DNA of 37,853 nt from the NCBI RefSeq assembly GCF_001646655.1, contig NZ_LPZN01000046.1, positions 1 to 37,853 of the forward strand, read 5' to 3'. This document shows positions 366-35,074 of the stretch, piece after piece (positions within the stretch are counted from its first letter, which is position 1; the number at the start of each line of letters is the position of its first letter). This DNA is from Rhodococcus gordoniae (GTDB taxonomy: Bacteria > Actinomycetota > Actinomycetes > Mycobacteriales > Mycobacteriaceae). The notes beneath the pieces were generated by a model. That model was given only the letters and a program-made list of their open reading frames with translations. It was not told where the DNA came from and made no database searches. The translations under genes were made by a program, and so were the position numbers.

Positions 366-429
366 AGACCTAGCATGAGGCGCTCGGCGCCCATACATAA
401 CAAAGCACAGATAATTAGGGAGTTTCCGA

Positions 430-3740: not shown

Positions 3741-3793
3741 GCGTGCGTTCTGCGCGCATCGGCACGACATCGACGTCGAAGTGAGGTAGTAGG

Positions 3794-11870: not shown

Positions 11871-11958
11871 AGGTCTTCCTGAATTGGTTCGGTTCTTGCA
11901 AACGCTAAGAGTGGTCCTGAACGGTCGTGGATGAACGTGCGGTTGGCGGCGTTGTAGA

Positions 11959-13791: not shown

Positions 13792-13866
13792 GCCGCTTGT
13801 GCCCCCTTCGTGGTTTCCGTTCGAGACGATAACCCGATTCCGAACTGGCCGACCGTTCAAGTGGTG

Positions 13867-13934
13867 GGTAACCGTGACTGTAAGTAAACTTCTGCACGGT
13901 GATCGTGACAGTGGAGTTGGGAGGCTCCGTCCAC
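13867..13934. promoter_or_regulatory. Direct repeats and inverted repeat in the DUF4012/NRPS divergent promoter region
   Basis: Two imperfect direct repeats lie in the 188-base gap: GGTAACCGTGACTGT (13867-13881) and GGTGATCGTGACAGT (13898-13912), identical at 12 of 15 positions. Their starts are 31 bases apart, close to three helical turns, so a protein could bind both on one face. An inverted repeat follows: GTGGA (13911-13915) with TCCAC (13930-13934), enclosing GGAG/CTCC (13920-13928). The position suggests an operator shared by both divergent genes. No confident -35/-10 boxes are called. This is inference from pattern only. Confidence 0.4.
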
Positions 13935-13979
13935 GATCGCACGATAGGGGAGGATTCTGCACGTCCCCTGTCCTGAATT

Positions 13980-16870
13980 GTGTCGGGCGAGGGCGAGGGG
14001 AGCGTGGTGCATCTACTTCCGCTGTCCCCTAGTCAGCGGGGGCTCTGGTACGCGCAAGCTCTCCATCCCGATGTGCCCTTCACGATTGCCCAGTACGTAG
14101 AACTTCGGGGCGAGCTCGATCACGACCTCGTTCGTCAGGCATGTGTGCAGGGTGCGCGCGACGTGGAGTCGGGTTTCCTGTTCCTCGTCGAGAAGGAAGG
14201 GCTTCCGGAGCAGGTTGTCGATGTCGAGTTCGACGACGACGTCCCGTACGTGGATTTCCGCTCGTGCGAGGATCCGGAAGCTGCGGCCCACCGGTGGATG
14301 AGCGAGCGATTCTCGCAGCCCATCGATCCGCTGCGCGACCGATTGATCGCGACGGCGTTGCTCCATATCGGCGACGGTCGTTACTTCCTGTCCAGCTACG
14401 TCCACCACATCGCTCTGGACGGGCACGGCGCGATGATCATGCTCAACCGCTCCGCCGAGCTGTACTCGGCGTGGATTGCGGGGGAGGAGACACCGCCCGT
14501 CACGTCGATGCCCGTCGAGAAGATCGTCGAGTTCGAGGCTGCATACACGGGGTCGAAACGTCAGACCGCCGATCGCGCCCATTGGCTCGAGCGGCTCTCC
14601 GGCCTGCCCGAGCCGATTTCACTCGTCGAAGGCGTCGCTCCGCCGACGGCGCCGGCACGCCATGCCGGCGCCGAGCTGCTGTCCGAGGTCGCCGACGCCG
14701 TGACGGCTCTGGCCTACGACGCGAACTCGACCGACGTCCCCATCGTCGTCGCCGCCTTCGCCGCATTTCTGTCGCGCGCGTGCGGCACCGACGATGTGGT
14801 GCTCACGCTCCCGGTCTCGGCGCGCACCACCGCGCCGCTGCGTCGCTCCGCCGGAGCCATCTCCAACGTCGTTCCGCTGCGGGTGCGCGTCGATCAGGCG
14901 GCGCCGGCCACCGATCTGATCCGCGACGTGCAGGTCGAGCTCACCGGCGCCCTGCGCCACCAGCGCTACCGCTACGAAGACATGCTGGCCGACCTGCGCG
15001 AGATGGGTCGCGAGCACAGCGAGACGCGCAACGCTTTCGGTCCCGTCGTCAACCTGATGATGTTCCACCCGCAGATCGCGTTCGGTGATGTCATCGGTGA
15101 TTACCACGTGCAGTCCACCGGACCGGTCGACGACCTGTCGGTCAACGTCTACCCGGGCGTCGCCGGCCGCACCATGCGCGTCGATTTCGAGGCCAACCCC
15201 AATCTCTACAGCGGCGAACACCTCTCGTCGCTGCACAGCCGTTTCCTCGGATTCCTGAAGCAGTTCGTGCAGAACGCGGGCGTCGCGGTGGGCGATCTCG
15301 CCCTCGCCGGCCCGGCCGAACTCGACGGCCTGGCGCCCGCCCGTGGCCGTACCGTGCCCGAGCCGGAACTGCTGCCCGACGTCCTCACCCGTCACGCCGC
15401 GCGCGACGCCGTCGCCGTCGTGGACGGGAGCGAGAGCATCACCTACCGCGAACTCGACGCTCGCTCCGACACGCTCGCTCATGCGCTGGTCGCGGCGGGT
15501 GCCGCCCCCGAAGAACGCGTCGCGGTGCTGCTGCCGCGCTCGTTCGACTCGGTGGTCGCGCTGTGGGCCGTCGCCAAGACCGGTGCCGCCTATACCCCGC
15601 TCGACCCCGAACTTCCCGCCCGCCGCCTCGGCCAGGTGCTGCGCGACGTGCGGATCGCCGTCGCCCACGACCACCCGGCGCTGCCCGGGCACGTCACCCG
15701 CATCGCGCCGCCCGCCGACGCATCCGGTGAGACCTTCACGGCCGAGCATCGCCTGCGTCTGCTGCACGTCGACAACGCGGCGTGGATCATCCACACCTCC
15801 GGTTCCACCGGCACCCCGAAGGCCGTCGCGGTGGGCCACCGCGGTGTGTCGGCGCTCGTGTCGACGCTGCGCGATCGCTACCGAGCCGACGAGGCGTCTC
15901 GCGTGCTGCACCTCGCCGCACCGTCCTTCGACGCGTCGCTGCAGGAACTGCTCCTCGCCTTCGATGCCGGCGCCACCCTGGTGATCTGCCCGCGCGACGC
16001 CGTCGGCGGGCCGGCCCTTGCCACCCTGCTGCGCAGCGAAGCCGTCACCCACGCGATCACCGCACCGGCGATCCTCGCCGTCACCCCCGACGACGGCTTG
16101 CCCGACCTGCAGGTTCTCGACGCCGGGGGCGAAGCGCTGCCGCAGGCCGTGGCCGACCGTTGGTCCACCGGCCGCACCATGCTCAATGCCTACGGGCCCA
16201 CCGAGACCACGATCCTCGCGACCCTCAGCGACCCCCTGCCGCCCGGCGCGGGTGTGCCCATCGGCCGGCCGATCGACGGCACCACCGCCGTGGTCCTCGA
16301 CGCCCGCCTGCATCCCGTGCCCGCCGGCGTGATCGGCGAGCTGTATCTCGGGGGACCGGGCGTGGCGCGCGGCTACCTCGGCGCACCGGCCCTCACCGCC
16401 GAACGCTTCCTCGCCTCGCCGTTCGGTGGTCGCATGTACCGCACCGGCGACCGCGTCCGCTGGACCACCGACGGGCAGCTCGAATTCCTGGGCCGTGCCG
16501 ACCAGCAGGTGAAGATCCGGGGCTACCGCATCGAACTCGGTGAGATCGAATCCGCGCTCGTCGCCGTCGACGAGGTGCAGACCGCGACCGTCACCGTCCG
16601 CGGCGACCACATCGCGGCCTACGTCGTGGGCGACGTCGACCCCGCCGATCTCACCGTCCGCCTCGCCGACGAACTGCCCACCTATCTGCGGCCGTCGTCG
16701 ACCACTGACGACTTCTTCGCGCTCGGCGGTCATTCGCTCGGCGCCGCCCAGCTCGCCGCACGTCTCGGTGCCGCACTGGGCCGCGACGTGCAGTTGCGCG
16801 ACGTGTTCGCCCATCCCACCGTTGCTCGTCTGGCAGCAGCCGCGGCGAAGCGACCCGAATCGGAATCGCG
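13980..16870 (+). other. NRPS module 1: EntF-like C, A lacking A10, shortened carrier protein
   Basis: C1 spans about residues 9-450, with HHIALDG at 142-148. Its C-terminal half ([10 protein letters not shown], then [13 protein letters not shown]) follows the EntF/DhbF pattern. A1 begins near residue 460 and has TSGSTG, FDASLQE, NAYGPTE, YRTGD and [15 protein letters not shown]. After [10 protein letters not shown] (about residue 905) the chain jumps directly to [13 protein letters not shown] of the carrier protein. The A10 motif with its catalytic lysine, the linker and the first carrier helix are absent, in frame. By-eye specificity residues are D-A-Q-I-L-A-A-I-L; I assign no amino acid. 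Confidence 0.85.
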
Positions 16871-19800
16871 ACCCGTCGCCACTCCCGATGCCGGGCCGTC
16901 GCCGCTGGCCCCAGCGCAGCGCCGACTGTTCCTGCTCGCCCGGGCGCACGGCGACCCGGCTGCCTACCACCTGCCGTTCGCACTGCACCTCGACGGTGCC
17001 CTCGACCTGCCGGCGCTGCAGGCCGCGGTGGTGGACGTCCTCGACCGGCACGAAACCCTCCGCACGCTGTTCCGCCTCGACGTCGACGGCCCGGTACAGG
17101 ACGTGCTGCCGCTCGATCGTGCCGTCGCCGGATTCGCTCTCGAACCCGAAACCGCCGAGGGCGACGTCGAAGCGCTCATCACCGAGTGGGCGGCCGAACC
17201 GTTCGATCTCACCGCGCAGATCCCGTTCCGCATCCGTCTGCTGCGACTCGCCGACGACAAGCACGTGCTCGCCGTCGTCGCCCACCACATCGCGCTCGAC
17301 GGTGCGTCGTTCGTGCCGCTCACCGCCGACGTCGCCACCGCATATCTCGCCCGCACGGCGGGGGAGGCGCCCGCGTGGACGCCGCTGCCGCTGCACTACC
17401 GGCACTACGCGCGGTGGCATCTCGATCGCCTCGGCGATCCGGCGGCATCCGACACTCGTGCCGGTCGCGAGATCGACTACTGGACACGCACACTCGACGG
17501 GCTCGCCGACGCGGCGCCGCTGCCCACCGACCGTCCCCGCAACGGCGGCTTCGGTCCCGCTGCGGCCGTGGACTTCACGGTGCCGGCCGAACAGGTCGCG
17601 GCACTGCGGGCCGTCGCCGCCGCACACGACGCCACCACCTTCATGGCCGTGCACGCCGCCGTCGCCGTGTGGCTCGCCGCCTGGACCTCCGGGCACGACA
17701 TCGCCATCGGCACCGGAACGGCAGGTCGCGACCATCCCGACCTCGACGCCCTCGTCGGCATGTTCGTCGGCACCGTCACCCTGCGGACGAATGTCGACCC
17801 GGCCGAGCCGTTCACGTCGCTGCTCGCGCAGGCCCGCGACACCGACCTCGACGCCTTCGCGCACGCCACCGTGCCGTTCGACTACGTCGTCGACGCCCTG
17901 GGCTTCTCGCCCTTCCACGTGATGCTCGCCTACGACAACGTGGACGTGCCCGACCTCGAACTGCCCGGACTCACCGTGCGGCCGCAGGAGATCGCCTCGG
18001 CGCAGGCACGATTCGACGTCGAGATCTCGCTGCGCGAACTGCGCGACGGATCGCTCACCGGCCGCCTCGTCTACGACACGAAGCTGTTCGACGACGACAC
18101 CATCGCCCGCTGGGTGACCCGCCTCAGCGGAGTGCTCGCGCAGGTCGCGCAGCATCCGTCGCTGCCCGTGGGCGACCTCGACCTCGGTGCCCCGGCTGTC
18201 GAGGCTGCCGAACCCGGCACGGAAGCGACCTTCGCCGAGATCATCGACCGGTCGCCGGCCTGCGTGACCGAACCCGGTGGACGGACCGTCGAGATCCGCA
18301 CGGCGGCACGCCCGCTCGCGTGGACGTTGATCGAGCGGGGTATCGGGACGGAAGATCGTGTGGCCGTCGTGCTCTCGCGGTCGACGCGCTCGGTGCTCGC
18401 CGCCGCGGCCGTCGCGCTGAGCGGCGCGGCCTTCGTGCCCGTCGATCCCGGCCAGCCCGCCGCGCGGATCGCCCGGTTGCTCGGCGCATCCGGCGCGCGG
18501 TACGCGATCGTCGACGGCGAGGTCGCGTTGCCCGACGGGATCGAGCCGATCGTCTTCACCGTCGAGGGCGATGCCCGCCCGATCACCGATGCCGATCGGG
18601 TGCGACCGCTGCGCCTCGACAACACCGCCTACGTCGTCTACACCTCGGGATCCACCGGCCGGCCCAAGGGCGTGGTGGTCTCGCACCGCGGACTCGGCCC
18701 GCTCGCGCAGTCGTTCATCGAGCGCTTCGACCTGCCTGCTGCCTCCGGCACCGTCACCGACGCGCGGGTGCTGCACTTCGCGACCCCCGCCTTCGACGGC
18801 GCGGTGCTCGAATACGTCCTGGCGCTCACCTCCGGTGGCACGCTGGTGGTGGCGCCCGCCGACCTGTTCGGTGGCGACGAACTGGTGGAACTGCTTCGCG
18901 CCGAAGGCATCACCCACTGGTTCTCGACGCCCTCGGTGCCCACCCAGCTCGACCCCACCGCACTCGACGCTCTCCGCACGATCGCGATCGGTGGCGAGGC
19001 GTGGCCGGTCGAGACCGCCGAACGCTGGGCACCCGGCCGCACCCTGCTCAACGTCTACGGACCCACCGAGACGACGGTGCTCGCCACCTCGAGCGAACCC
19101 TTCGCACCGGGCGACCGGCTCACCATCGGTACCGGCCTCGTCGGCGTCACCGCGGTGGTGCTCGGCGAACGCCTGCGGCCCGTGCCCGAGGGAGTGACCG
19201 GCGAGCTGTACCTCGGGGGACAGGGCGTCGCCCGTGGATATCTCGACGCACCGGCACTCACCGCCGACCGGTTCGTCGCGAACCCGTTCGGCGCCGGACG
19301 CCTCTACCGCACAGGCGATCTCGTCCGCTGGACGGGACACGACGACGACCGCGCCCTCGAATTCGTCGGCCGCAGCGACCATCAGGTCAAGATCCGCGGT
19401 TTCCGCATCGAACTCGGCGAGATCGACGCGACCCTGCAGAACCACCCGGGCATCGGCACCGCCGTGACCGTGGTGCGCGGCGACACCCTCGCCACCTACG
19501 TGCACAGCCGCAACGGCCGCCTCGACCCGCACGAGATCCGCGAGTGGGCCGCCGAGCGGCTGCCCCGGCACATGGTGCCCGCGACCGTCACCGTGCTCGA
19601 CGCGCTGCCGCTCACCAGCACCGGCAAGATCGACCGCGCGGCCCTGCCCGAGCCGGTGGTCGCCGCGACTCGCACCGACGGGTATCGCAGCGCCACCGAA
19701 GAACTCGTCGCCGGTGTCGTCTCCGACCTGCTCGATCTGCCGAGCGTCGCCGGATCCGACGACTTCTTCGCTGTCGGCGGCAACTCGCTGCTCGCGACCC

Positions 19801-22800
19801 AGCTCGCGGCGCGTCTGCGGGGCGTCGCCGGTCGCCGGGTGGGTGTGCGCGACATCTTCGAGCACCCCACCGTCACCGAACTCGCGAACCTGCTCGCCGA
19901 GGAACCCGCGGGCGAGCACCTGCCGCTCGTGCACGTCGACGACGACAGCGACGTACCGCTCGCCCCCGCGCAGCAGCGCATGTGGCTGCTCAACCGGTTC
20001 GACGTGGCCGACCGCGTCGACGGCGGCGATCACATCGCCTTCGCGCTCGACCTCGACGCCGACACCGATCTCGACGCGGTGCGCGCGGCCGCCGCCACGG
20101 TGGTCGCACGCCACGACTCGCTGCGCACGGTCTTCCCCGACAGCCCGTCCGGCCCGCGCCAGCACGTGCTGCCGACGGTGACACTCGACCTCGAGCCCGT
20201 CGACCCCGGCACCGCCCTCGATGCGGAACTGGCCGAATTCGCCCGTGTGCGTTTCGATCTCACCGTCGACGCGCCGATCCGCACCCGCCTGTACCGGACG
20301 GACTCCGGTTACGTGCTCGCCGTGGTGATCGACCACATCGCCGCCGACGGCCTGTCGCTGCTGCCGCTCGGACGCGACGCCGTCGCCGCCTATCGCGCCC
20401 ACCGCGACGGGGAATCGCCGGACCTGCCGGCTCCGGCGGTCACCTACCGCGACTACGCGCGCTGGCACCGGGCCGTGCTCGGCGACGAGAACGACCCCGA
20501 CAGCCTCGCGGCCCGGCAGCTCGCCTTCTGGAAACAGACCCTCGACGACGCGCCGCCGCTGCTCGCGCTGCCCACCGACCGTCCCCGCACCGCGGCGTCG
20601 ACGGGCACCGCGGGTCGCGCGAGCTTCACGATCCCCGCCGAACTGCACGCCGCGATCGACAAGCTCGCCCGCGCCCACGACGTCACACCGTTCATGGTGC
20701 TGCACGCCGCGCTCGCGACGCTGCTCTCGGCGCTCGCCGCCACCGACGACGTCACCGTCGGCACCCCGGTCTCCGGACGCAGCGACGCCGCGGTCGACGA
20801 CGTGGTGGGCATGTTCGTCGGCACCGTGCCGCTGCGGCTGCGGGTGCATCCGCGCCGCACCTTCGCCGACCTGCTCGCCGATACCCGCCGCGCCGACCTC
20901 GACGCCTTCGCCCACGCCGACGTGCCGTTCGACCGCATCGTCGACGCGGTGGGCGCCGGCACCGACGCCCACCATCCGTTGTTCCAGGTCATCCTGGCGT
21001 ACGAGTCGTTCTCACTCGACGAGTTCGCGCTGCCCGGCAGTTCCACGACGATCCGCGAGATCCCGGTGGGCACCGCCCGCGTCGACCTGGAGATGACCGT
21101 CCGGGAACGTCGTTCGGAGACCGGTGTACCGGCCGGCTTGGACACGATCCTGACGTACTCGGACGAACTTTTGGATTCGCACACGATTGTGCAGTGGCAG
21201 TCGTGGTTTGTGCGTATCCTCGACTCTGTTACCGCCGATCCGGCAGTGCCGGTCGGCGGTATCGAGTTGTGCGGCGCCGACTTCACCCCCGTCGGCGCCG
21301 CGCAGCAACTTCCGGCCGAGTCGCTGCCCGAGCTGGTCGCGCAACGCGTGGCCGACGATTCCGAGGCCGTCGCCGTGGTGGGGGACGGGTACTCCCTCAG
21401 CTACGGCGCCCTGTGGTCGCGCTCGGGCGCGCTCGCCACACTCCTTCGTGAACACGGCGTCACCGCCGAGGACGTCGTCGCGGTCGCACTGCCGCGGACC
21501 CCCGAACTGGTCGTCGCGATCCTCGCCGTCTCCCGCGTCGGCGGCATCTACCTGCCCGTCGACGTCACGCATCCCGCCACGCGCCTGCAGGCCCTGCTCG
21601 ACGACGCGCAACCCACCCTGGTGGTCACCGACAGCGACCTCACCGACATCCGTTTTCCCGCAGTGCGACTCGACGATCCGCAGGTGGCCGCCCGCCTCGA
21701 CGACGGTGCCCTCTTCGATTTCCCGCTCGTCGCGGATCTCGGCGCCTACATCGTCTACACCTCGGGATCCACCGGCACCCCCAAGGGCGTGCAGGTGACG
21801 CACCGCAACGTGCTGTCGCTGCTCGCCGCGACCGTCGGCGAATTCGGGTTGCGCGCCGACGACGTGTGGACGCTGTTCCATTCGCCGGCCTTCGATTTCT
21901 CCGTGTGGGAGATGTGGGCGCCGCTGGGCACCGGTGCCCGCGTCGTCATGGTCGACCACCTCACCGTGCGCGACCCGGCCGCCTTCGTCGACGTGCTCAC
22001 CCGCCACCGCGTGACGGTGCTCAACCAGACCCCCACGGCGTTCTACCAACTCGCCGCCACCGACCACGCGCCGCTCGACGACCTGCGGCTGCTGATCTTC
22101 GGCGGCGAAGCCCTCGACCCCGCGCGCGTACGTCCGTGGGCCGAGCGCCACCCGCACGTGCGGGCGGTCAACATGTTCGGCATCACCGAGACCACCGTGC
22201 ACGTCACCTTCGGCGATGCCACCGCGACCGGCATCGGCGCGCCGCTGCCCGGTCTCGCCGTGGACGTGCTCGACTCGTCGCTGCGACCCGCACTGCCCGG
22301 CGCGATCGGCGAATTGTACGTGCGCGGAGACCAACTCGCGTGCGGCTACCGCGCCCACCCCGGCCGGACCGCGACGCGCTTCGTCGCCGCCCCGGGTGGC
22401 GCCCGCCGCTACCGCACCGGCGACCTCGGACGCCGCGACAGCAGCGGTGCCCTGCACTATCTGGGGCGCGCCGACCAGCAGATCGAACTGCGTGGCTACC
22501 GCATCGAACCCGGCGAGATCGAAGCCGCCCTGCTGCGCAGCGAGGGTGTGCGTCAGGCGGTGGTGCTGCTGCGCGACGACCGGCTCGTCGCCTATCTCGT
22601 CGGCGGCGACGCTCCCGCCGCCCTGCGCGACCTGCGCCGCAGCCTGCCCGACTATCTCGTGCCGTCGGCCGCCGTGGTCCTCGACGCGCTGCCGCTCACC
22701 GCGAACGGCAAACTCGACCGCGCCGCGCTGCCCACCCCCGACATCACCGCCGGTGGGGGAGCGGCACCGCACGGGCCGGTCGAGGAGCTGGTCGCGGACC

Positions 22801-25800
22801 TGTGCGCCGAACTGCTCGGGATCGCCCCCGGCACCCTCGGCGCCGACGACGACTTCTTCCACCTCGGTGGCAACTCGCTGCTCGCCACGCGTCTCGCGGG
22901 CCGCCTGTCGGATGTGCTGGACACCGATGTCACCGTGAGAGACATCTTCGAGAACCGGACCATTGCGGCCTTGACCTCATACATAACCACCAGAAGCGAT
23001 ACGCCTTCTCGCCGTGTGCCTCTCGTCGCCGACCCCGACGCACCGGCTCCGCTGTCGGCGGCGCAGCAGCGCCTGTGGTTCATCAACCGCCTCGACCCGC
23101 AATCCCCGAGCTACAACCTGCCGTTCGCGGTGCGGCTCGAGGGGAACCTCGACATCGGCGCTCTCGCCGCCGCCGTAGGCGACGTGCTCGAACGGCACCG
23201 CACGCTGCGCACCGTCTACCCGGCCGCCGACGAGTACACCGTGCTGCCCGCGGCACGCCCCGATCTCGAACCGGTGGCCGTGCCCGAAGACGCCCTCGAC
23301 GAGTTCGTCCGCGATTACGCCACCACCGGTTTCGATCTCACCGTCGAACCCCCGGCCCGCCTGCGGCTGTACCGGACGGCACCCGACCGGCACGTGCTGC
23401 TCGTCGTCCTGCACCACATCGCGGCCGACGGCTGGTCGCTCACGCCGCTGCTGCGCGACATCGCCGTCGCCTACGAAGCCCGCCTCACCGGCGCGGCCCC
23501 CGAGCTGCCGACACTGCCCGTGCAGTACACCGACTACGCGCGCCGGCAGCGCAGCATCGCCGACGAGCAGATCCCGTACTGGCTGGACGAACTCGCCGGC
23601 CTGCCCGACGAGGTGACCCTGCCCGGCGACCGGCCGCGACCCGCACAACCCACCGGACACGGTGCCGCCCACACCGTCTCGCTCGACGCCGATCTCGTCC
23701 GCGGTCTGCACGCCCTGGCCCGTGAGGGTCGCGCGACGGTGTTCATGGTGCTGCACGCCGCGCTCGCGGCGCTGCTCGCGCGGCACGGTGCCGGTCGCGA
23801 CATCCCGATCGGCACCGCCGTCTCCGGTCGCGGCGACCCGCAGCTCGACGACGTCGTCGGTATGTTCGCCGGCACCCTCGTGCTGCGCACCGACGTCGAT
23901 CCCGGCGTCACCTTCGCCGAGCTGCTCGCGCAGGTGCACCGCCGCGACCTCGCGGCCTACACGAACCCCGACGCGCCGTTCGAGACGCTCGTCGAGAAGC
24001 TGCGGCCCGCCCGCAGCGAAGCGCGGCACCCGCTGTTCCAGGTGGCGCTGTCGCAGGCGCGGCCCGTCGCCTCGACCTTCGCGCTGCCCGGCCTGACCGT
24101 CACGGCCGAGCCGGTCGACACCGAACACGTCAATGTCGACGTGCAGGTCACCGTCACCGAGCAGCAGGACGGCATCGACCTCGAATTCTTCTACAGCACA
24201 GACCTGTACGACGCCGACACCGTCGCCGCCTACGCCGATCGTCTGCGCGCGATCCTCAGCGCGGCCGTCGCGGATCCGGATGTGCGGGTCGGGGAGATCG
24301 ACCTGCACGGCGACACTGCTCTGCCCGCCGTGGGTGCCACACTGGGTGCGCCGCGATCGCTGCGGCGGTGGCTGGCGCAGGGTGCGGCCGCCGGTGGCGA
24401 GGAACTCGCGATCGTCGACGGCGACCGCGAACTGTCGTATCCCGAACTGCTCCACTACTCCGACGCTCTCGCTGCACGCCTGCAACTCGCCGGTGTGCGT
24501 CCGGGCGATCCGGTGGCGTGCGCCTACCCGCGCTCGCTCGAATCGGTGCTCGCCGTGTGGGCCATCATCGGCGCCGGTGCCGCACCGATGCTCGTCGACC
24601 CCACCGCCCCCACCGCGCGCCTGGCCGAGATGCTCGCCGAGGTGCGCGTGGGGGTCGGTGAAGCACCGGCACTTCCGACGAGCGTGCGGTGGCTCGAGGT
24701 GACCTCCGACGACGAGCATCCGCTCGCCGACGTCGTCGACCCCGCACCCGACGCCCCCGCCTATTTCGTCTTCACCTCCGGCACCACCGGAAATCCCAAG
24801 GCCGTCACCGTCACCCAGCGCGCCGCGAGCGCGTTCGCCGAGGACATCGGCGAATACATCGCGGCCGTCCCGGGCGATCGCGTACTGCACGTCGCGGCAC
24901 CGTCGTTCGACGCCGCGATGCTCGAGATGCTCACCGCCGGCATCGCCGGCGCGACGCTCGTGGTGGCCGGCGCCGACGGCTACGGCGGCGCCGCCCTCGG
25001 TGATCTGCTCGACAGCGCCGCCATCACCCACGCGATGATGACACCGTCCACTCTCGCCACTGTGCCGGTGCGCGACCTGCCCGCCCTGCGCACCCTCGTG
25101 CTCGGCGGCGACCGCCTGACCCGCGAGATCGTCGACCGCTGGAGCGGCGGGCGCACTCTGATCAACAGCTACGGCCCGGCCGAGGCCACGATGTTCGTCA
25201 CCAACTCGCAGCCCCTGCGCCCCGGCGACGACATCGTCATCGGCACCCCCGTCCGCGGCGTCACCGTCGAGGTGCTCGACGAGCGGCTGCGTCCCGTGCC
25301 CGCCGGAGTGGTCGGCGAACTGTACGTCTCGGGACCGCGACTCGCGTCGGGCTACCGCGACGCCGCCGCACGCACGGCAGCGCGCTTCGTCGCCGGACCC
25401 GACGGCCGCCGCTACCGCACCGGCGACCTCGTGCGCTGGACCCGCGCCGGTGCACTCGAATTCGTGGGCCGCAGCGACAACCAGATCAAGCTGCGCGGCG
25501 TGCGCATCGAACCCGGCGAGATCGACACCGCCCTCACCGCACTCGACGGCGTCGAACGGGCGGTGACCCGCGTGCGCGGAGGTCGCCTCGTCTCGTACGT
25601 CACCGGCGGGAACCTCGACGGCTCCGACCTGCGGGCGCAGCTGCGCAGCGTCCTGCCCGCACACCTCGTGCCCACCGCGATCGTGCCGCTCGCCGCGATC
25701 CCGCTCACCTCCCACGGCAAGGTCGACGCCGCCGCGCTGCCCGAACCCACCGCCGGTGACGGCAGCGAACCGCGCACGGAGACCGAGGCGCTCGTCGCCC

Positions 25801-28800
25801 GGATCATCGGCGACGTCCTCGGCGACGGTGCGACGGTGGGACGCACCGACGACTTCTTCGCCGTCGGCGGCAACTCGCTGCTCGCCACCGTCCTCGTCGG
25901 ACGCCTGCGCGACGAGACGGGCACCGAGGTGCCGCTGCGCACCGTCTTCGCGAACCCCACCGTCGACGCACTCGCGGCCGCTCTCGACGCCGGTGGTTTC
26001 GACACCGGTGCCGGGCCCGCCGCGGTCTCGCCGCGACCGGCACGGATCCCGCTCGGCCGCGCGCAGCGCCGCCTGTGGGGTCTGAGTTCCCTTGCCCCCG
26101 ATGCGTACCGGCTGCGCAGCGAGGTGAGCCTGAGCGGACCGCTCGACCTCGGTGCCCTGCAGGCCGCGCTCGGCGACGTCGCGCTGCGCCACGAGATCCT
26201 GCGCACCGACTACATCGTCGACGGCGACGGGGTGTACCAGCAGATCCACGAGGCGCCGCGCAGCGACCGGTGGCGCGTGCGACTCGAACGCACCGGCCCC
26301 GACCGGCACGTGCTGCACCTCGACGTCGACCATTCGATCGCCGACGGCACGTCGCTGCGACCGTTGCTGCGCGACCTCACCATCGCCTACCTCGCCCGGG
26401 TGAACGGCACGGCCCCGCAGTGGGAGCCGCTGCCGCTGCAGTACGCCGACTACGCCCTGTGGGAAGCCGAACGCGGTATCCCCGAACGCGACCTCGAGCA
26501 CTGGCGCCGCGCCCTCGACGGACTGACCGTCACCGAACTGCCCGCCGACGCCCCCGGAACCGACACCGGGGCGCGCAGCGTCGACTTCACCGTGCCCGCC
26601 GATGTGCGCGACGCGCTCGCCGAACTCGCCCGAGCGCACGGCGCCACCGAGTTCATGGTGCTGCACGCCGCGCTGTCGGTGCTGCTCGCGCGACTCGGCG
26701 GCAGCGACGACATCGCCGTCGCCGCGGTGGTGGGCGGACGCCGCTGGGCGCAGCTCGAAGAGCTCGTCGGGCCGTTCCTCGACACGCTCGTGCTGCGCGC
26801 CCGCGTGGCCCCCGACATGTCGTTCACCGGGTTGCTCGGCCAGGTCCGCGATTTCGACGTCGCCGCCTTCGACCACGTGACCGTGCCCTACGAGCAGCTG
26901 CTGTCGGAGCGGCAGAGCGGTGCACCGCAGGTCGCGCTGGCGTTGCAGGACTTCGGCATCGGCCCGATCACCCTCGGCGAGCTCACCGTCGAGGCCCGCG
27001 AAATCCTCGACGACACACCGAAGTTCGACCTGCAGTTCACCCTCGCCCCGCGCCCCGGCGGCTACACCGGCACGCTCGTGTTCGACGCCGCCCGCTTCAC
27101 CGGCCGCACCGCCGAACTGCTCGCCACCCGATTCGTCGCGCTCCTCGAGGCCGTGGCCGGCGCACCCGGCAGCACCATCGGTGAAGTGGCGGTCGACACC
27201 CCGGCGCCCGCCCTCGACGGCGGCGAACCCGCCCCGGCACGCACGCTCGCCGAGATGCTGCGCGCCACCGCCGCCGCACATCCCGATCGCGAGGCCCTGC
27301 GCGGCGACGGCGAATCGCTCACCTACCGCGAACTCGACGAGCAGTCCGACACCCTCGCCTGCCGGTTGCGGGCCGAGGGCGCGCGGGACGGGAAGATCGT
27401 GCGCATCGACGCCCCGCGCAGCGTCGACTACATCCGCACCCTGTGGGCGATCACCAAGACCGGTGCGGCCTTCACACATTCGCGGCAGGCGGGGGAGACG
27501 TGCCTGCCCGGCACCGCCTACGTCGTGTCCACCTCCGGCTCCACCGGCACCCCGAAGCGGGTCGCGGTGACGCACCGCGGACTCGCCCCGCTCGCCGCCG
27601 AAGCGGCCGAGCGATACCGGGTCGAGCCCGGCGACCGCGTGCTGCACGGCTATTCACCCGAGTTCGACGCGGCACTGCTCGAACTGCTGCTCGCCCACAC
27701 CACCGGCGCGACCCTCGTCGTCGCACCCCCGGACGTGTATGCGGGTCAGGACCTGCACCGCTACCTCGCCGAGCAGCGCATCACCCACTACCTGTCGACC
27801 CCCACCGTGCTCGGCACCCTCGACCCCGAGGGCCTGCCCGACCTGAAGGTCGTCGCCTCCGGAGGCGAATCGCTGTCGCCGTCGCTCGCGGCACGCTGGG
27901 CCGACGGCCGCGTGATGCTCGACGCGTACGGGCCGACCGAGGCCACGATCGTCGCGACCCTCGTCGATATCGAACCCGGCACCCGCCCGAACATCGGTAA
28001 GCCCGTGCCCGGCACCGTCGCCCACGTGCTCGACGCGCGACTGCGTCCCGTCCCGGCCGGCGCCGTCGGCGAGCTGTACCTCGCCGGTGAAGGCCTCGCC
28101 GCCGGTTACCTCGACGACCCGGCCCGCACCGCCGAACGCTTCGTCGCCGCCCCCGGCGGCGCACGCATGTACCGCACGGGCGACCGCGTCCACCGCCGCG
28201 TCGACGACACCCTCGGCTATCTCGGCCGCACCGACCGCCAGCTCAAGGTGCGCGGCGTGCGCATCGAACCCGGCGAACTCGAGGCGACGCTGCTCGCCCA
28301 GCCCGGTATCCGGCAGGCCGCGGTGGTCGCGGTGGCGGGCACGCTCGTCGCCTTTGCGGCCGGACCGGACCTGTCGGCCGACGACATCACCGCGCGCGTC
28401 GCGCTCGTCGTGCCGCCGCACCGCATGCCCACCCGCGTGCACGTGCTCGACCAGTTGCCCCTCACACCCAACGGCAAACTCGACGTCGCCGCACTCGAAC
28501 TGCACGATACCGCCGCACTCGACGACGATGCCGCCCTCGACCGGCCCCTCACCGACGCCGAGGACCTCGTGGTCACCGTCGCCGAGGACGTGCTCGGTGC
28601 CCGTCCGGCCGCGCACCGCGGGTTCTTCACCGCCGGCGGCGACTCGCTCTCGGCCGTCGTCTTCGCCGCGCGGCTGAGCGAGGCGTTCGGCACCGACGTG
28701 CCGGTGCGCGAGGTACTGGCCGCCCCCACCCTCGCTGCGCTCGCCGCCCGCATCGAATCCGGCGACGACCATCGCATCGCGCTGCGCCGCTACGACGACG

Positions 28801-31800
28801 ACACCCCGCCGCCCATCGCCCCCGCGCAACGCCGCCTCGGCATCGTCGCGCGCGCCGAGACCGGCACCGCCGGCTATCTCGTGCCGGTCGTGCTGTCGCT
28901 GACCGGCGACCTCGACGTCGACGCCCTCGCCGCCGCGGTGAGCGACGTCGTCGACCGGCACCGCGTGCTGCGCACCGCCTTCACGGGCGACGTGCAGGTG
29001 CTCGCCGACCCGCCGGTGCTCGAACACTCCGCGCCGGACGATGTCGCCGCGGCCGTGACTGCCACGATCACGACCCCCTTCGACATCACCGCGCAGGCGC
29101 CGATGCGGATCCGGTTGTTCGACGCCGAACCCGGCCGCCGGGTGCTCGCCGCCGCCGTGCACCACATCGCGTTCGACGGCGCGTCCGTCGCACCGCTGCT
29201 CACCGATCTCGCCGCCGCCTACGCCGCGCGTCGCGGGGGAGCGGCGCCGGTCTTCGAACCGCTGCCCGTCACCTACGGCGACTACGCCCGCTGGCAGCAC
29301 GAACTGCTCGGCGACGCCACCGATCCGGGCTCGCTCGCGGCCCGCCAACTCGGCTACTGGACAACCGCACTCGCCGGCCTGCCCGACAGCCCGCTGCCGC
29401 TGCCCGCCGACCGGCCGCGCCCCGCGCAGCCGAGCCACCGTGGCGCGCAAATCGTCTCGACTCTCGATGCCCAGACCCATCGTCGCCTGCGGGAGGTGGC
29501 GCGCAGCCACGACGTGACGGTATTCATGCTCGTCCACGCCGTCTTCGCCGCGATGCTCGCGCGTCGCAGCGGACGCACCGACATCGCCGTCGGCACAGCG
29601 ATCGCGGGTCGCACGGATGCGCGCCTCGACCGGCTCGTCGGCATGTTCGTCGGCACCGTGGTGCTGCGCACCGCCGTCGACCCGTCCCGGCCGTTCACCG
29701 AACTGCTGCGCGAGGTGCGGGCCACCGATCTCGGGGCACTCGCGCACGCCGACGTGCCGTTCGACGAGGTCGTCGCCCGGCTCGCGCCGCGCCGCGATCC
29801 GTCGTACAGCCCGCTCTTCCAGGTGCTGCTCACCCACCGCGTCGAGGTCAAGGAGGCGCTGCCGCAGTTGCCGGACGTGCAGGTCGCCGACACCGATGCC
29901 GGGGAACCGGCCGCGCAGTTCGATGTGGTCGTCGAGCTCGTCGAACGCGAGGCCGGACTGGACCTGCGCCTGGTGTACGCGACGGACCTGTTCGACGCCA
30001 CCACCGGCGACGCGATGCTCACCGACCTCGTCGCGATACTCGCCGCCGCGCTCGCCGAACCCGAGCGTGCCGTCGGCGATCTCGCCGTGCCGGTGCCCGA
30101 GCCGCTGTCGGCGCCCGCCGTCGAGCCGCGCACCCTGCCCGAGATCCTCGCGACCAGCGTCGACCGGCATCGCGGACGCATCGCGGTGCGCTCGGGCACC
30201 GTCGCCTGGACCTACGGCGGACTCGACGCCCGCGCCGACGAGATCGCCTCCGTGCTCGCCTCGCACGGCGTGCGACGCGGCGACCTCGTGGCGATCGCGG
30301 TGCCGCGCAGCGAGTACTGGCCGCTCGCCGTCTGGGCGATCACGAAACTCGGTGCGGCCTGGGTGTCGGTCGACCTCACCCAGCCCGACGCGCGCAGCGC
30401 CGCGATCCTCGCCGGCTCCGGTGCCCGCATCGGCCTGACCGTCGGCGACCGCGAACTCGGCCACGTGACGTGGATCGACCTCACCGCCGACCGCAGCATC
30501 GACTTCGACGCCGTCGAACCACCGCGCCCCGCAGTGACATCCGGCGATCTCGCCTACACGATCTACACATCCGGCACCACGGGCACCCCCAAGGGCGTCG
30601 ACGTCACCCATCGCGGACTCGCGGCGCTGCTCGACGTCCAGAGCACTCTGCTCGGCCTCGGACCGGAATCGCGTGTACTGCAGGTCGCCTCGCACACCTT
30701 CGACGCCGCGATCTTCGAACTGCTCTCCGCCCACGCGCACGGCGGCGCCCTCGTCATCGCCCCCGATCACACCTTCGCCGGGGAACCCTTGCAGGAGTTG
30801 ATCGTCGACGAGCGCGTCACGGACCTCAACCTCACGCCCACCGTGCTCGGCACACTCGACCCCGAGGCGTTCGAGCCCACGACGATCGTCGCCGCAGGTG
30901 AATCGCTGCCCGGTGCGCTGGTGAGCCGCTGGTCGCGGCACCGGATCGTCAACGGTTACGGGCCCACCGAGTTCACCGTCGCCGTCTCGTATTCCGCTCC
31001 GCTGAGCGGCGGCGAGAAGCCGGGCATCGGCACGCCCGTCGCCGGTGCCGGCGCCTACGTGCTCGACTCGCGCCTGCACCCCGTGCCGCGCGGCACCGTC
31101 GGCGAACTCTACGTGACCGGCGACAGCATCGCCCGCGGGTACCGCTACGAATCCGGTCTCACCGCAACACGATTCGTCGCCGACCCGTTCGGCGACGGCG
31201 GGTCGCGGCTGTACCGCACGGGCGACCTGGTTCGGATCCTGCCGAACGGGGTACTGGATCACGTGGCCCGCATCGACGATCAGGTGAAGATCCACGGGAT
31301 CCGCATCGAACCCGCCGAGGTCGACGCCGCGCTGCTGACCCGCCCCGGCATCGCCGCGGCCGTCACCGTGCCGCAGCCCGGGCGGGCCGGAGACACCGTG
31401 CTCGTCTCCTACATTCAGCCCGAGACCGGCACCGCACCCGACGTCGCCGCACTGCGCCGCGCGCTCGTCGCCGAGCTGCCCCGGCACCTGCGGCCGGCGA
31501 GCATCACCGTCGTCGACGCGTTGCCGCTGTTGCCGTCCGGCAAGGTCGACCGTGCGTCGCTGCCCGAACCCGACGGCACGACCGACGAACCGCTCGTGGC
31601 GCCGCAGGGACGCATCGCGCAGACCGTCGCCGCAGTGTTCGCCGCCCACCTCGACCTGCCCGTCGACGAGATCTCCGCCGACCGCGGATTCTTCGACCTC
31701 GGAGGCAGTTCCATCGGAGCCGTCGGTGTGGCCGGTGAACTGCGCGACGCCCTCGGCGCCGACGTCCCCGTCGAATGGCTGTTCACCAGCCCGGATCTCG

Positions 31801-32627
31801 CCGCTCTCGCCGACCGCATCGAACACGGCCGCAGTAATGACGAGCGCGACCCGCGCAGCGACGACGACCGCGACCCGCTCGGCAGCATCGTCGAGATCGC
31901 CGGTCGCGGCGACGAACGGCCCCCGCTGTTCTGCGTGCACCCCATCAGCGGACTCGCCTGGATGTACGCAGGATTGGCGCCTCATCTGGGCGGCCGCACC
32001 GTCTACGGTCTGCAGGCAACGGGCTTCGACGACATTCCGGACAGCATCGGCGAACTCGCCGCGCGGTATGTCGCCGAGATCCGTAAGGTGAACGCCGATG
32101 GTCCCTACCACCTGCTGGGCTGGTCGGTGGGCGGCACCATCGCACACGAGATGGCTGTGCAACTACGCGAGCGCGGTGAGCAGGTCGGTGCGGTAGTGCT
32201 GCTCGACACCCTCACACCCGAGACCTTGCCTGCCGAGCCCCATCCCGCGGCAGAGAACGTGCCCGACATCGCCGGGCTGCCCGAAGAACTCGTCGCCGAG
32301 GTCCGCCGCCGCACCGACGCCGCCGCGCAGGCCGTCGAAACCGCGGTGCGCAGGCACACCCTCAGCGAATACGACGGCGACATCGACCTGGTGGTCGCCG
32401 CACCCGATCTCGACCGGCACCCAGACCTCGCTGCCACCTGGCAGCGATATGTGCGCGGTCTCGTCGTCGAACATCCGGTGCCGTTCACGCACTCGGAACT
32501 GGCCGATCCGGACGCGGTGCGTGCGATCGGCCCGGTGCTCGACAGCGTGCTCGAGCGCCACGACGACCCCCACACCGCGCCCACCGGGTGCGCACGCAGT
32601 GTTACCGCAACGAGGGAGACGCCCTGA
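13980..32627 (+). CDS. Giant six-module non-ribosomal peptide synthetase with terminal thioesterase
   Basis: The 6,215-residue protein reads C-A-T six times and ends in a type I thioesterase. There are no epimerisation, methylation, cyclisation or reductase domains. Condensation motifs (HHxxxDG) are at residues 142, 1102, 2118 (DHxxxDG), 3145, 4117 (DHxxxDG) and 5061. Carrier serines are at 919, 1936, 2966, 3966, 4889 and 5911, and the thioesterase serine is at 6049. The first C domain resembles that of EntF, implying an acylated or arylated start. Two adenylation domains carry internal deletions (modules 1 and 5). The upstream start is GTG 13980, with no clear ribosome site; GTG 14007 follows GAGGGGAG (13995-14002) and fits the family N-terminus as well or better. 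The stop overlaps the start of the Wzz/BY-kinase gene (TGATG). No MbtH-like protein or carrier-protein transferase is in the window. The product is unknown. Confidence 0.95.
16890..19920 (+). other. NRPS module 2: C-A-T, specificity unassigned
   Basis: C2 carries HHIALDG at residues 1102-1108. A2 (about residues 1417-1890) has [45 protein letters not shown] and an intact A10 ([10 protein letters not shown]). Its first core segment is atypical: the usual LTYxEL is replaced by [13 protein letters not shown]. By-eye specificity residues are D-G-L-F-A-G-V-V-L, which I cannot match to a known code. The carrier serine is Ser1936 in [14 protein letters not shown]. Confidence 0.85.
19935..23000 (+). 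other. NRPS module 3: C-A-T, threonine predicted
   Basis: C3 has DHIAADG (residues 2118-2124); the second histidine, the catalytic one, is kept. A3 has complete core motifs: [51 protein letters not shown] and NGKLDRAAL. The specificity residues read D-F-W-N-I-G-M-V-H plus the A10 lysine, the canonical threonine code. This is the only module whose substrate I assign with confidence. The carrier serine is Ser2966. Confidence 0.9.
20690..26674 (+). repeat. Near-identical sequence blocks repeated between NRPS modules
   Basis: The same 24 bases, coding for FMVLHAAL with the preceding base, occur at 20690-20713 (C3), 23741-23764 (C4) and 26651-26674 (C5); in C3 and C4 the match runs 4 bases longer. 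Similar blocks recur around the YTSGSTG motif of A2 and A3 (near 18632 and 21748). They come from module duplication or gene conversion and could serve as recombination sites. Confidence 0.75.
23025..26020 (+). other. NRPS module 4: C-A-T, specificity unassigned
   Basis: C4 has HHIAADG at 3145-3151. A4 carries [47 protein letters not shown] and an A10 with its lysine (HGKVDAAAL). By-eye specificity residues are D-A-L-M-V-G-S-M-F; no match is offered. The carrier protein [14 protein letters not shown] holds Ser3966. The module appears complete. Confidence 0.85.
26040..28775 (+). other. NRPS module 5: C-A-T with A domain shortened between A2 and A3
   Basis: C5 carries DHSIADG (4117-4123), keeping the catalytic histidine. 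A5 lacks the region between TKTGAAF and STSGSTG: 18 residues separate these landmarks, against 66 in A1 and 67 in A6, so about 48 are missing. The A3 lysine is kept, but PKG is PKR. Later motifs ([30 protein letters not shown]) are present. By-eye specificity residues are D-A-L-L-A-G-A-I-V, unassigned. The carrier protein reads GGDSL (Ser4889) instead of GGNSL. Confidence 0.85.
28785..31840 (+). other. NRPS module 6: C-A-T, specificity unassigned
   Basis: C6 has HHIAFDG at 5061-5067. A6 has [32 protein letters not shown] and SGKVDRASL. Its A8 segment deviates: [20 protein letters not shown], where GRxDxQVKIRG and GEIE are usual. By-eye specificity residues are D-A-F-N-V-A-G-V-A, unassigned. 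The carrier protein reads [15 protein letters not shown] with Ser5911 and passes the chain to the thioesterase. Confidence 0.83.
31880..32600 (+). other. NRPS type I thioesterase domain
   Basis: The alpha/beta-hydrolase domain starts at [14 protein letters not shown] (about residue 5981). The nucleophile is Ser6049 in GWSVGG. A late THSELADP segment provides the expected catalytic histidine. It would release the finished chain by hydrolysis, cyclisation or transfer to another acceptor. A short charged linker (residues about 5940-5975, rich in Asp/Arg) separates it from the last carrier protein. Confidence 0.87.
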
Positions 32628-34429
32628 TGGAAGTACATGATTACCTGCGAATTCTGCAGGCGAGGTGGAAGATCGTCGCCGTCACGACGGTGGTGGCGGT
32701 TCTTGCCGCACTCGGCGCCTCCCTGCTGACCACGCCGCAATACGAAGCCAAGACACGCCTGTTCGTGTCGACCTCGTCGGGCGCGTCGGTGCAGGAGATC
32801 TACCAGGGCAACCTGTTCTCGCAGCAGCGCGTCACCTCCTACACCCAACTGCTCGAAGGCACCACCCTCGCGCAGCGCACCCTCGACACGCTCGGTCTGG
32901 GCGACCTGTCGGCCGTCGACCTCGCCGGCAAGGTCACCGCCTCGTCGACCCCCGACACGGTGCTCATCGACACCGCCGTCACCGACGAGTCGCCGGAGCG
33001 TGCCCGCGACCTCGCCAACGCACTGTCGGACGAATTCGTCGTCATGGCACGCGAACTGGAGACCCCCGAGGACGGCGGCCCGCCCACCGCCCGCGTGGTG
33101 GTCGAGCAGTACGCGGCCACTCCGTCGTCGCCGGTGACGCCGAAGACCACGCGGAACGTCGCGCTGGGCCTGGCCGTCGGTCTGCTGCTCGGTATCGCCC
33201 TCGCGGTGCTGCGCGACCGCCTCGACAACACCATCAAGGACCGCAGCGCCGTCGAGGAACTCGCCGGCACCGGTGTGGTGGGTGTGATCCCGCTCGACAA
33301 GGCCCGGCACGAGGACCCGGCGATCGTGTTCGCCGACGCCAACAGCGGCGACGCCGAGGCCTACCGCGAGATGCGGACCAACCTGCAGTTCCTCGAGGTC
33401 GACAACCCGCCGCGCGCGATCGTCATCACCAGCTCGCTGCCCAGTGAGGGCAAGACCACCACGGCCGTCAACACGGCTCTCGTGCTCGCCGAGGCCGGCC
33501 ACTCTGTGGTGCTCGTCGAGGCCGACCTGCGCCGTCCGCGCGTGACGAAGTACCTCGGCACGCTCGGCGACGCCGGCCTGTCGACCGTGCTGGCGAACCA
33601 GGCCACCCTCGAGGACGTGCTCCAGCCGACCCGCTTCGACGGCATGTGGGTGCTCGCCGCCGGCGGACTGCCGCCCAACCCGTCCGAGCTTCTCGGGTCC
33701 GCGCACGCCCGCGAGGTCATCGAGGACCTGCGGTCGCGCTTCGACTACGTCATCATCGACGCGCCGCCGCTGCTGCCCGTCACCGACGCGGCGATCCTGA
33801 CGAACATCGCCGACGGCGCGCTGCTCATCGCGCGCTACGGCAAGACCACCCGCGAGCAGTTCGCGCGGGCCGTCGGCAACCTGCGTGCGGTCAACGCCCC
33901 CGTGCTGGGCACGATCCTCGCGATGACCCCCACCAAGGGTCGCGGCACGGCCTACGAGTACCGGTACTACTACAGCTCCGACAAGGACGGCGCCGCTCCG
34001 GCCGCCCGGACGAGCACGCCGGCGGCGCAGCGCGTCGATCCGTCGGGGCAGACCGCACCGGCATCTCGGACGGCCCCGGCACCTCGGCCGGCCGAGCCGG
34101 CGCGAGAGGCACAGCCGGCACACTCGGCACAGCCGTCGCAGCCGACCCCGTCGGCGCCCGCCCAGGAAACGGCCCGGCCGCAGAACGGTCACCGTCACGT
34201 CGAGCCGCCGGCCACGCAGGCCTACCCGGCGCCGAGCAACGACGCCTACCACTACCGCGCCGCGGAGCAGTTCCCGCCCGCGCCGCAACCCGCCTCGGAG
34301 CGCTACGGCAGCGAGCCCTACCAGGCGCCGCAGGCGTACTCCTCCGCCGAGCCGCTGTCGCGACCCGTGGTGCACGCACCGCGGCGCCCGGTGAACGATT
34401 CAGGAACGGAGACCGGCGAGGAGAGGTAG
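32627..34429 (+). CDS. Wzz chain-length determinant fused to BY-kinase (CpsD/Wzc-like)
   Basis: The protein (600 aa) combines a polysaccharide co-polymerase with a bacterial tyrosine kinase. Membrane segments at about residues 15-35 and 177-197 bracket an extracytoplasmic Wzz domain starting with YLRILQARWKI. The cytoplasmic kinase has Walker A (SSLPSEGKTTT, Lys276), Walker A' (VVLVEADLRRP) and Walker B (YVIIDAPP). A tyrosine cluster YEYRYYY begins at about 443, then a Pro/Ala/Gln-rich tail of about 150 residues with scattered tyrosines (YHYRAAE, YQAPQAY). It would control chain length and export through autophosphorylation. ATG 32627 shares its A with the NRPS stop (TGATG) and has GAGGGAG upstream, so translation is probably coupled. 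The 3' end overlaps the phosphatase gene on the other strand by 30 bases. Confidence 0.92.
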   Translation: MEVHDYLRILQARWKIVAVTTVVAVLAALGASLLTTPQYEAKTRLFVSTSSGASVQEIYQGNLFSQQRVTSYTQLLEGTTLAQRTLDTLGLGDLSAVDLAGKVTASSTPDTVLIDTAVTDESPERARDLANALSDEFVVMARELETPEDGGPPTARVVVEQYAATPSSPVTPKTTRNVALGLAVGLLLGIALAVLRDRLDNTIKDRSAVEELAGTGVVGVIPLDKARHEDPAIVFADANSGDAEAYREMRTNLQFLEVDNPPRAIVITSSLPSEGKTTTAVNTALVLAEAGHSVVLVEADLRRPRVTKYLGTLGDAGLSTVLANQATLEDVLQPTRFDGMWVLAAGGLPPNPSELLGSAHAREVIEDLRSRFDYVIIDAPPLLPVTDAAILTNIADGALLIARYGKTTREQFARAVGNLRAVNAPVLGTILAMTPTKGRGTAYEYRYYYSSDKDGAAPAARTSTPAAQRVDPSGQTAPASRTAPAPRPAEPAREAQPAHSAQPSQPTPSAPAQETARPQNGHRHVEPPATQAYPAPSNDAYHYRAAEQFPPAPQPASERYGSEPYQAPQAYSSAEPLSRPVVHAPRRPVNDSGTETGEER

Positions 34430-34915
34430 CAGCAGGTCGGCGATCTCGGATCCGACCGCGACGAACGTCTCCTCGTCGCGGCCGATCGGGTCGACGATGT
34501 CCTCCGGCCCGGGCGCAGACATCTGCGCCCGGGCCGTCGCCAATTCTGCGACGGTCTGTGCTCCGGTGGCCTCGTGCAGCCGGGCCGCCTCACGCAGAGT
34601 GAACGTCGCGCGCATCCTGCGCGGCGCGAGCTGGATCACCTTGGCCCGGTGCCGCTCGCTCATCGTGATGATCATGTCGGAGTCCTCCGCGATCTGCGGT
34701 GTGATCCGACGCGCGGCGAAACCGTCCGGATCGCCTCCGAGCTGCTGCAACACGAGTGCTGCGGTGGGTTCCATGCCGTAGCCGACCATGGCCCGGGTGC
34801 CGGCGCTGTGCGCCGAGAGATCATCGCGGCCGACCTCGGACGCGTACGCGGTGGTCAGCCTCTCTGCGGTCGGTGAGCGGCAGATGTTTCCGGTACACAC
34901 ATAGAGAATCCGCAT
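34400..34915 (-). CDS. Low-molecular-weight protein-tyrosine phosphatase (Wzb-like)
   Basis: The 171-aa protein is a low-molecular-weight tyrosine phosphatase. The P-loop VCTGNICRSPTAE at the N-terminus gives the CX5R signature (Cys7, Arg13), and the general-acid aspartate is in the C-terminal VDPIGRDEETF. Such enzymes remove phosphate from the tyrosine cluster of the Wzc/CpsD kinase and so reset capsule assembly. It faces the kinase gene tail to tail, with 3' ends overlapping by 30 bases. ATG 34915 has AGGA seven to eight bases upstream on the minus strand. Its promoter would lie in the gap shared with the Hsp70-like gene. Pairing with the kinase is inferred from context and family knowledge. 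Confidence 0.92.
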   Translation of the reverse strand: MRILYVCTGNICRSPTAERLTTAYASEVGRDDLSAHSAGTRAMVGYGMEPTAALVLQQLGGDPDGFAARRITPQIAEDSDMIITMSERHRAKVIQLAPRRMRATFTLREAARLHEATGAQTVAELATARAQMSAPGPEDIVDPIGRDEETFVAVGSEIADLLLPLLAGLRS

Positions 34916-34963
34916 CCGGCGATCCTATGGGAGAGGCCTTCGGGGTGCTCGGTCCCGGTGTAT

Positions 34964-35009: not shown

Positions 35010-35074
35010 CGTCGGTGATTTCGGGCGCCGGGGGAAGCTGACGCAGCTGGCGCAACCAACGTCGAAGGCGGCTG

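Follow-up and report, generated by a model that had tools for sequence, protein, structure and literature searches.

A nonribosomal peptide synthetase gene is retained between Wzc and DUF4012 genes in surface-polysaccharide loci of Rhodococcus and related genera

The 37,853-nucleotide contig NZ_LPZN01000046.1 of Rhodococcus gordoniae (assembly GCF_001646655.1), analysed over its full length and referred to here as the window, carries a gene for a nonribosomal peptide synthetase (NRPS) that lies between a divergent gene for a DUF4012 protein and a gene for a Wzc-like bacterial tyrosine kinase (BY-kinase). Pfam recognizes an initiating sugar transferase, a Wzx flippase, a Wzy polymerase and Wzc in the window, which identifies the surroundings as a Wzx/Wzy-dependent surface-polysaccharide locus and bears out the original prediction, made from the letters of this DNA alone, that the NRPS sits inside such a locus. 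Across genera, the NRPS proves to be a stable and long-standing member of these loci, placed between Wzc and DUF4012, and this neighbourhood survives reordering of the genes.

The NRPS frame (13980-32627, forward strand) encodes six condensation (C) and six adenylation (A) domains in C-A-T modules (T, thiolation) followed by a releasing thioesterase, as in modular type I NRPSs, with A1 being short in the window strain. The conserved start is GTG at 14004 or 14007: a TGA stands immediately 5' of it in CH91 and SMB37, and the near-identical P0122 starts with MVHLLPLSP. The kinase combines a Wzz/PCP (polysaccharide co-polymerase) membrane domain (PF02706, 39.8 bits against a cut-off of 25.5) with an autokinase domain (Pfam AAA_31; TIGR01007, polysaccharide tyrosine autokinase, 163 bits against a cut-off of 108), and it aligns to the BceF and Wzc structures, so that its earlier assignment as a Wzz/BY-kinase stands. 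A YEYRYYY cluster may serve autophosphorylation. Elsewhere in the same genome there is a second, distant Wzc homologue with 34% identity (G000:C69:74024-75292).

At the junction of the two genes, acgagggagacgccctgatggaagta, the NRPS stop TGA (32625-32627) and the kinase start ATG (32627-32629) have a single A in common, exactly as had been predicted. The proposed ribosome site GAGGGAG is indeed present within the NRPS frame, 8 nt 5' of the kinase ATG, at 32612-32618 instead of about 32611-32617. The overlap and the position of this Shine-Dalgarno-like motif are consistent with the translational coupling that was proposed for the window, yet the overlap is a lineage-specific trait and not a general feature: a TGATG or TAATG junction is seen in 8 of the 18 Rhodococcus loci having the NRPS, and in the remaining ten the NRPS stop lies 38-132 nt 5' of the kinase ATG. 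One-base gene overlaps are ordinary in bacterial operons. As only part of the related loci show it, the overlap was dropped as the core of the finding; the real finding is the gene order. NRPS and Wzc would be co-expressed, in the window's group through translational coupling and in the other groups as genes lying close to each other, and the promoter for both likely lies in the DUF4012/NRPS intergenic region (13792-14003). A scan of 31500-35200 for sigma-70 promoters and terminators found nothing.

A scan based on the kinase picks up close relatives only, yielding 31 loci (20 from Rhodococcus, 10 from Mycolicibacterium and 1 from a planctomycete). The NRPS lies directly 5' of the kinase in 18 of the 20 Rhodococcus loci, so that the adjacency, whose confinement to a single strain would have spoken against the original prediction, is conserved far beyond it. 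The other two, from R. coprophilus and Rhodococcus sp. 105337, still carry short pieces of either end of the NRPS between DUF4012 and Wzc, which indicates loss rather than primitive absence. DUF4012 is the divergent neighbour in all 16 Rhodococcus regions read. No NRPS was found directly 5' of the kinase in any of the 10 Mycolicibacterium loci, one of which has only 3.2 kb upstream, and DUF4012 was seen in three of these loci and not in the stretches read for the other seven.

A search with DUF4012 covered 121 genomes of the family in 31 genera (labelled g1-g31) and gave 62 places in 53 genomes. Two fragments (G137, G030) were left out, and 60 places in 51 genomes were analysed, 53 of them in newly retrieved stretches and 7, matched by their coordinates, in regions that were already part of the analysis; for one place (G050:C60) the upstream sequence extends over no more than 2.75 kb. 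An NRPS adjoins DUF4012 on the 5' side in 32 of the 60 places, distributed over 9 of 15 genera, and a decayed NRPS takes this position in 2 more; in 25 of the 32, Wzc lies at most about 0.9 kb away on the far side of the NRPS. The predicted association of DUF4012, NRPS and kinase thus recurs widely in related genomes. The window's genome holds about 14 open frames with condensation domains, against a total that we estimate at some 4,400 genes, so that a gene picked at random would have an NRPS next to it on a given side in well under 1% of cases. The 32 neighbours are not a matter of chance, even if common descent means that the places are not independent.

Two ARRANGEMENTS were observed. In arrangement A, found in g1, g6, g10 and g24 (Rhodococcus, Prescottella), DUF4012 is divergent from an NRPS that is followed by Wzc on the same strand, while in arrangement B, found in g11, g19 (Williamsia) and g9 (probably Gordonia), Wzc, NRPS and DUF4012 follow each other in this order on one strand. 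In g9 a phosphatase gene separates the NRPS from DUF4012; phosphatase and DUF4012 are fused in three named Gordonia proteins. The Williamsia genome G028 presents the whole locus as one collinear run of genes for priming transferase, phosphatase, UDP-sugar dehydrogenase, WecG-GT4, epimerase, acyltransferase, GT2, Wzy, acyltransferase, pyruvyl transferase, Wzx, Wzc, NRPS, DUF4012, ATP-binding cassette (ABC) ATPase and ABC-2 permease, in which the NRPS abuts or overlaps Wzc. Ten of the 11 window glycan-side genes have a homologue in G028, the exception being an SGNH hydrolase.

Such rearrangement bears on the simplest alternative, in which the neighbours were co-inherited without shared function and the TGATG overlap is a by-product of retained synteny. 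The Wzc, phosphatase, HSP70-like and YibE/F genes also stay near each other in many Rhodococcus loci, and on a DUF4012-domain tree of 40 rows, made by a quick method, the NRPS-linked state needs three changes, so that the link is mostly one inherited state. The trio nevertheless remains together while its order changes between NRPS-Wzc with divergent DUF4012 and Wzc-NRPS-DUF4012, and it persists in other Rhodococcus regions where few of the window glycan proteins upstream of DUF4012 are matched. Moreover, the NRPS gene is maintained at 13-25 kb across relatives (18.6 kb in the window) under purifying selection. We therefore consider unaided co-inheritance quite improbable. As judged from the tree, the association of NRPS and DUF4012 appears to be mostly one old link with subsequent loss, not the result of many gains.

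Table 1. Features of the window, and NRPS remnants in two relatives
Feature	Position	Strand	Basis or remark
NRPS, six C-A-T modules and thioesterase	14004..32627	+	C1 resembles starter domains; frame opens at 13980
Starter-type condensation domain C1	14007..15302	+	PDB matches; partial NCBIfam MxcG and EntF matches
Adenylation domain A3, code DFWNIGMVHK	21300..22814	+	code reading
Adenylation domain A5, penultimate module, code DALLAGAIVK	27183..28592	+	code reading
Thioesterase end of NRPS	31776..32627	+	PF00975, partial EntF match, thioesterase tree
Shine-Dalgarno-like GAGGGAG within NRPS frame	32612..32618	+	also present in overlapping relatives
TGATG, overlap of NRPS stop and kinase start	32625..32629	+	sequence
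Wzz/BY-kinase (Wzc-like)	32627..34429	+	Pfam Wzz and AAA_31, TIGR01007, BceF/Wzc structures
Low-molecular-weight tyrosine phosphatase (Wzb-like), convergent	34400..34915	-	PF01451
DUF4012 protein, divergent from NRPS; residues 225-450 predicted LCP fold	11959..13791	-	PF13196
DUF4012/NRPS intergenic region	13792..14003	.	partly conserved, even where the NRPS has decayed
Polysaccharide pyruvyl transferase	10932..11984	-	PF04230
Wzx-type flippase	9611..10897	-	PF13440/PF01943
Wzy-type polymerase	6214..7542	+	PF04932
Initiating sugar transferase (cut by contig start), UDP-sugar dehydrogenase, WecG-GT4 fusion, epimerase, hexapeptide acyltransferase	3..5369	+	
Decayed NRPS remnants	L011:9290-10000 (Rhodococcus sp. 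105337); L014:9430-10000 (R. coprophilus)		

The selection on the NRPS was read from dN/dS values of 0.17-0.23 in five pairs (0.07-0.25 for the kinase), which point to clear purifying selection. For a closer comparison we read 14 full-length NRPSs, that of the window and 13 from a set of 18 genomes, in which two others hold NRPS remnants and three are Mycolicibacterium. The number of modules varies from 4 to 8, with additional modules placed N-terminally, and the terminal thioesterase motif is present in the full-length NRPSs compared (n = 14). The last four A codes follow the same pattern in 14 of 14: DFWN(I/V)GMVHK, a variable code, DALLAGA(I/V)VK or DALLGGAVVK, and again a variable code. 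By the A-domain code table, DFWNIGMVHK would stand for threonine. A DALLAGAVVK-type module is common to g1, g6, g10, g24, g27 and g28, and 27 control A domains from the window's genome yielded no such code. The best PDB matches of C1 are 7c1k and CDA synthetase I (5du9, 4jn3), followed by ObiF1 and EntF, so that EntF-type starters are near as well. The product would be an N-acylated peptide whose length is about 3-8 residues and whose core is fairly conserved. In the window and in P0122, the stretch of A5 that separates motifs A2 and A3 is short, and the A-domain match splits there in several relatives.

The A1 domain of the window lacks 56 residues, a C-terminal part including the lysine position, that are present in P0122, CH91 and G129. 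This gap could be either a real in-frame deletion or an assembly collapse, and it raises the possibility of a defective NRPS or a wrongly assembled contig in this strain, with Wzc expression being all that matters there. The gap is in frame, the rest of a frame of about 6,200 codons is open and the gap could be a collapse in a draft of 114 contigs, so we regard this explanation, compatible as it is with any of the other readings for the relatives, as very unlikely.

The DUF4012 protein gives a hint at what the locus may do. Its residues 225-450 are predicted to adopt the fold of LCP (LytR-CpsA-Psr) proteins, and the core of the protein is thus predicted to be LCP-like. Foldseek with the whole 610-residue model gave nothing at E 0.001 or better, the top rows being M1 aminopeptidases. 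Five residues that are invariant in the alignment (E26, R28, D113, D119 and R165, numbered in alignment A2) are candidate catalytic residues.

That an NRPS gene stays wedged between two sugar-coat genes in Rhodococcus and a number of related genera suggests a connection between peptide and coat. On balance we favour a reading in which the NRPS of a glycan locus, alongside an LCP-like DUF4012 protein, provides an acyl peptide that acts with the glycan at the cell surface. The acyl peptide is probably joined to the glycan or displayed with it; the connection could be covalent, with the peptide as acceptor, anchor or substituent, or the peptide could be a co-displayed lipopeptide, and DUF4012 would move the lipid-linked glycan to its acceptor. 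The original prediction, that peptide and glycan are made from one message for a decorated exopolysaccharide (EPS) or a co-exported lipopeptide, is as a whole partly supported. A more specific form of our reading, in which the acyl peptide is both acceptor and anchor of the capsule or EPS and DUF4012, as an LCP-like transferase, takes the Wzy polymer off its polyprenyl carrier and attaches it to the lipopeptide, possibly at a threonine hydroxyl where present, seems unlikely to us; we know of no precedent for such a class of glycoconjugate, a lipopeptide-anchored polysaccharide, in actinobacteria.

Several observations weigh against a close functional tie of peptide and glycan. R. coprophilus and Rhodococcus sp. 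105337 have lost a functional NRPS while retaining the glycan genes together with DUF4012 and Wzc, which speaks against an obligate peptide decoration of the glycan. In the Mycolicibacterium loci L028, L029 and L030, DUF4012 lies shortly 5' of Wzc on the same strand without an NRPS, and 26 of the 60 DUF4012 places lack an NRPS neighbour (7 in g2, 5 in g6, 4 in g19, 3 each in g21 and g29, and 1 each in g16, g18, g27 and g31), one of them, the first DUF4012 copy of G054, having the NRPS on its other side in the same cluster. Wzc does not flank the NRPS in 7 of the 32 positive places: G101, G115, G041:C13 (g24), G036 (g19), G135 (g9), G046 (g28) and G044 (g27), for the last of which only 12 kb upstream was read. 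In two g24 genomes, the R. erythropolis-like G101 (so placed by its thioesterase; L163/L230) and G115 (L164/L231), NRPS and DUF4012 stand together and no Wzc was found within about 31 kb. Among 15 distant Wzc homologues (30-64% identity) from 13 genomes of other genera, read over 13 kb upstream (8.6 kb in one) and about 2.5 kb downstream, 14 have no adjacent NRPS in the stretch read; G028 is the only positive, and G021 has a weak NRPS match of 25% at 4-6 kb upstream. As most distant Wzc homologues stand without an NRPS, DUF4012 is the better predictor of the NRPS, and Wzc was dropped as its main partner. Judged by these neighbourhoods, the tighter partner of the NRPS is DUF4012 rather than Wzc.

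Further points on the same side come from the proteins. Foldseek TM-scores of DUF4012 to LCP stay below 0.5, and LCP is not matched by sequence: Pfam gives PF13196 only, and a profile search of PDB sequences gives none at E up to 10. The NRPSs of g6 (3 of 3) and g28 (1 of 1) lack the threonine code, a code of this type is carried by 2 of the 27 control A domains from the window's genome, and the window's own A1 misses residues kept in P0122 (gap at about 16690-16700). In a tree of 39 of 88 thioesterase frames, with only one g19 row, the thioesterases of arrangements A and B do not form one clade: 21 rows, most of arrangement A, form a supported set with R. hoagii, R. erythropolis and R. opacus proteins, 9 arrangement-B rows form another, and the arrangement-A rows G076, G109 (g10) and G054 (g6) fall outside both. 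The split weakens the idea of one orthologous NRPS throughout, and the NRPS or its end may therefore have been exchanged or recruited more than once. An insertion of the NRPS into an ancestral DUF4012-Wzc pair, as L028-L030 had suggested, is weakened too, since these rows lie inside the NRPS-linked DUF4012 set (several forks being weak) and loss is therefore as likely as insertion.

The product could also be an independent secreted lipopeptide, a surfactant or antibiotic, co-regulated with the coat for the same conditions and without any chemical link to the glycan. C-starter NRPSs are described as common in Rhodococcus and are regarded as lipopeptide makers in PMC5550956. A range of 4 to 8 modules resembles the variation of diversifying natural products, arrangement-B loci carry an ABC ATPase beside DUF4012 (together with an ABC-2 permease gene in 3 of 4 checked), and glycan genes remain where the NRPS is lost. 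Against these points, Pfam detects neither a dedicated exporter gene nor a dedicated tailoring gene next to the window NRPS, and the partners retained across genera are an LCP-like protein and Wzc. We therefore see an independent lipopeptide as a possible but somewhat unlikely explanation, and keep to a peptide that acts with the glycan.

Some further features of these loci deserve mention. The window gene at 1728-3740 encodes a WecG/TagA-type glycosyltransferase fused to GT4, and a similar 717-residue protein occurs in Williamsia G028. At 35075-36484 lies a gene for an HSP70-like protein in which inspection by eye shows a hydrophobic stretch as well as a proline-rich tail; in many relatives, too, it adjoins the phosphatase and YibE/F genes. 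Several Rhodococcus genomes have a second NRPS about 7-16 kb past Wzc, mostly with a similar starter C domain (L011:18327-21572, L014:18347-21572; also G007, G008, G009, G014 and G129).

The anchoring of capsules and EPS on the mycolic-acid envelope is poorly understood. The conserved Wzc-NRPS-DUF4012 unit joins this problem to that of the Rhodococcus NRPS products, points to purified surface glycan as the place to look for the NRPS product and offers a testable function for DUF4012, that of an LCP-like glycopolymer transferase. Among open-licence PMC papers, judged by titles and abstract openings, an NRPS within a Wzc/DUF4012 locus was not found as a topic. According to PMC5550956 most Rhodococcus NRPS products are unknown, and its main text, to the extent available, does not contain the word polysaccharide; the available parts of PMC7358434 and PMC12298843 catalogue NRPS clusters without a link to a Wzc/DUF4012 locus. 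The window NRPS may belong to the NRPS-2 family of Ceniceros et al. 2017 (PMC5550956).

The LCP transferases Cps2A, TagT/U/V and LcpA have the same fold as predicted for DUF4012 residues 225-450, whereas DUF4012 shows no sequence-level match to them and has an extra helical N-terminal part and a C-terminal beta region beyond the predicted core. The mycobacterial glycopeptidolipid loci are alike in that an NRPS makes a sugar-bearing surface lipopeptide in related bacteria. They are marked by epimerase domains and release without a thioesterase; the window differs from them in its Wzx/Wzy/Wzc setting and its terminal thioesterase, and a simple motif pattern found no E-type (epimerase) motif in 14 of 14 NRPSs. 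The EPS cluster of Bifidobacterium longum 105-A (PMC5412050), as far as its gene listing was available, has a priming transferase, DUF4012 and wzz as neighbours, like the window, and lists no NRPS, unlike the window. There is also a likeness in gene content with Wzx/Wzy capsule and EPS loci that include Wzc and Wzb: the window shares with them the initiating transferase, Wzx, Wzy, Wzc and the low-molecular-weight phosphatase, and differs by an 18.6-kb NRPS gene placed between DUF4012 and Wzc.

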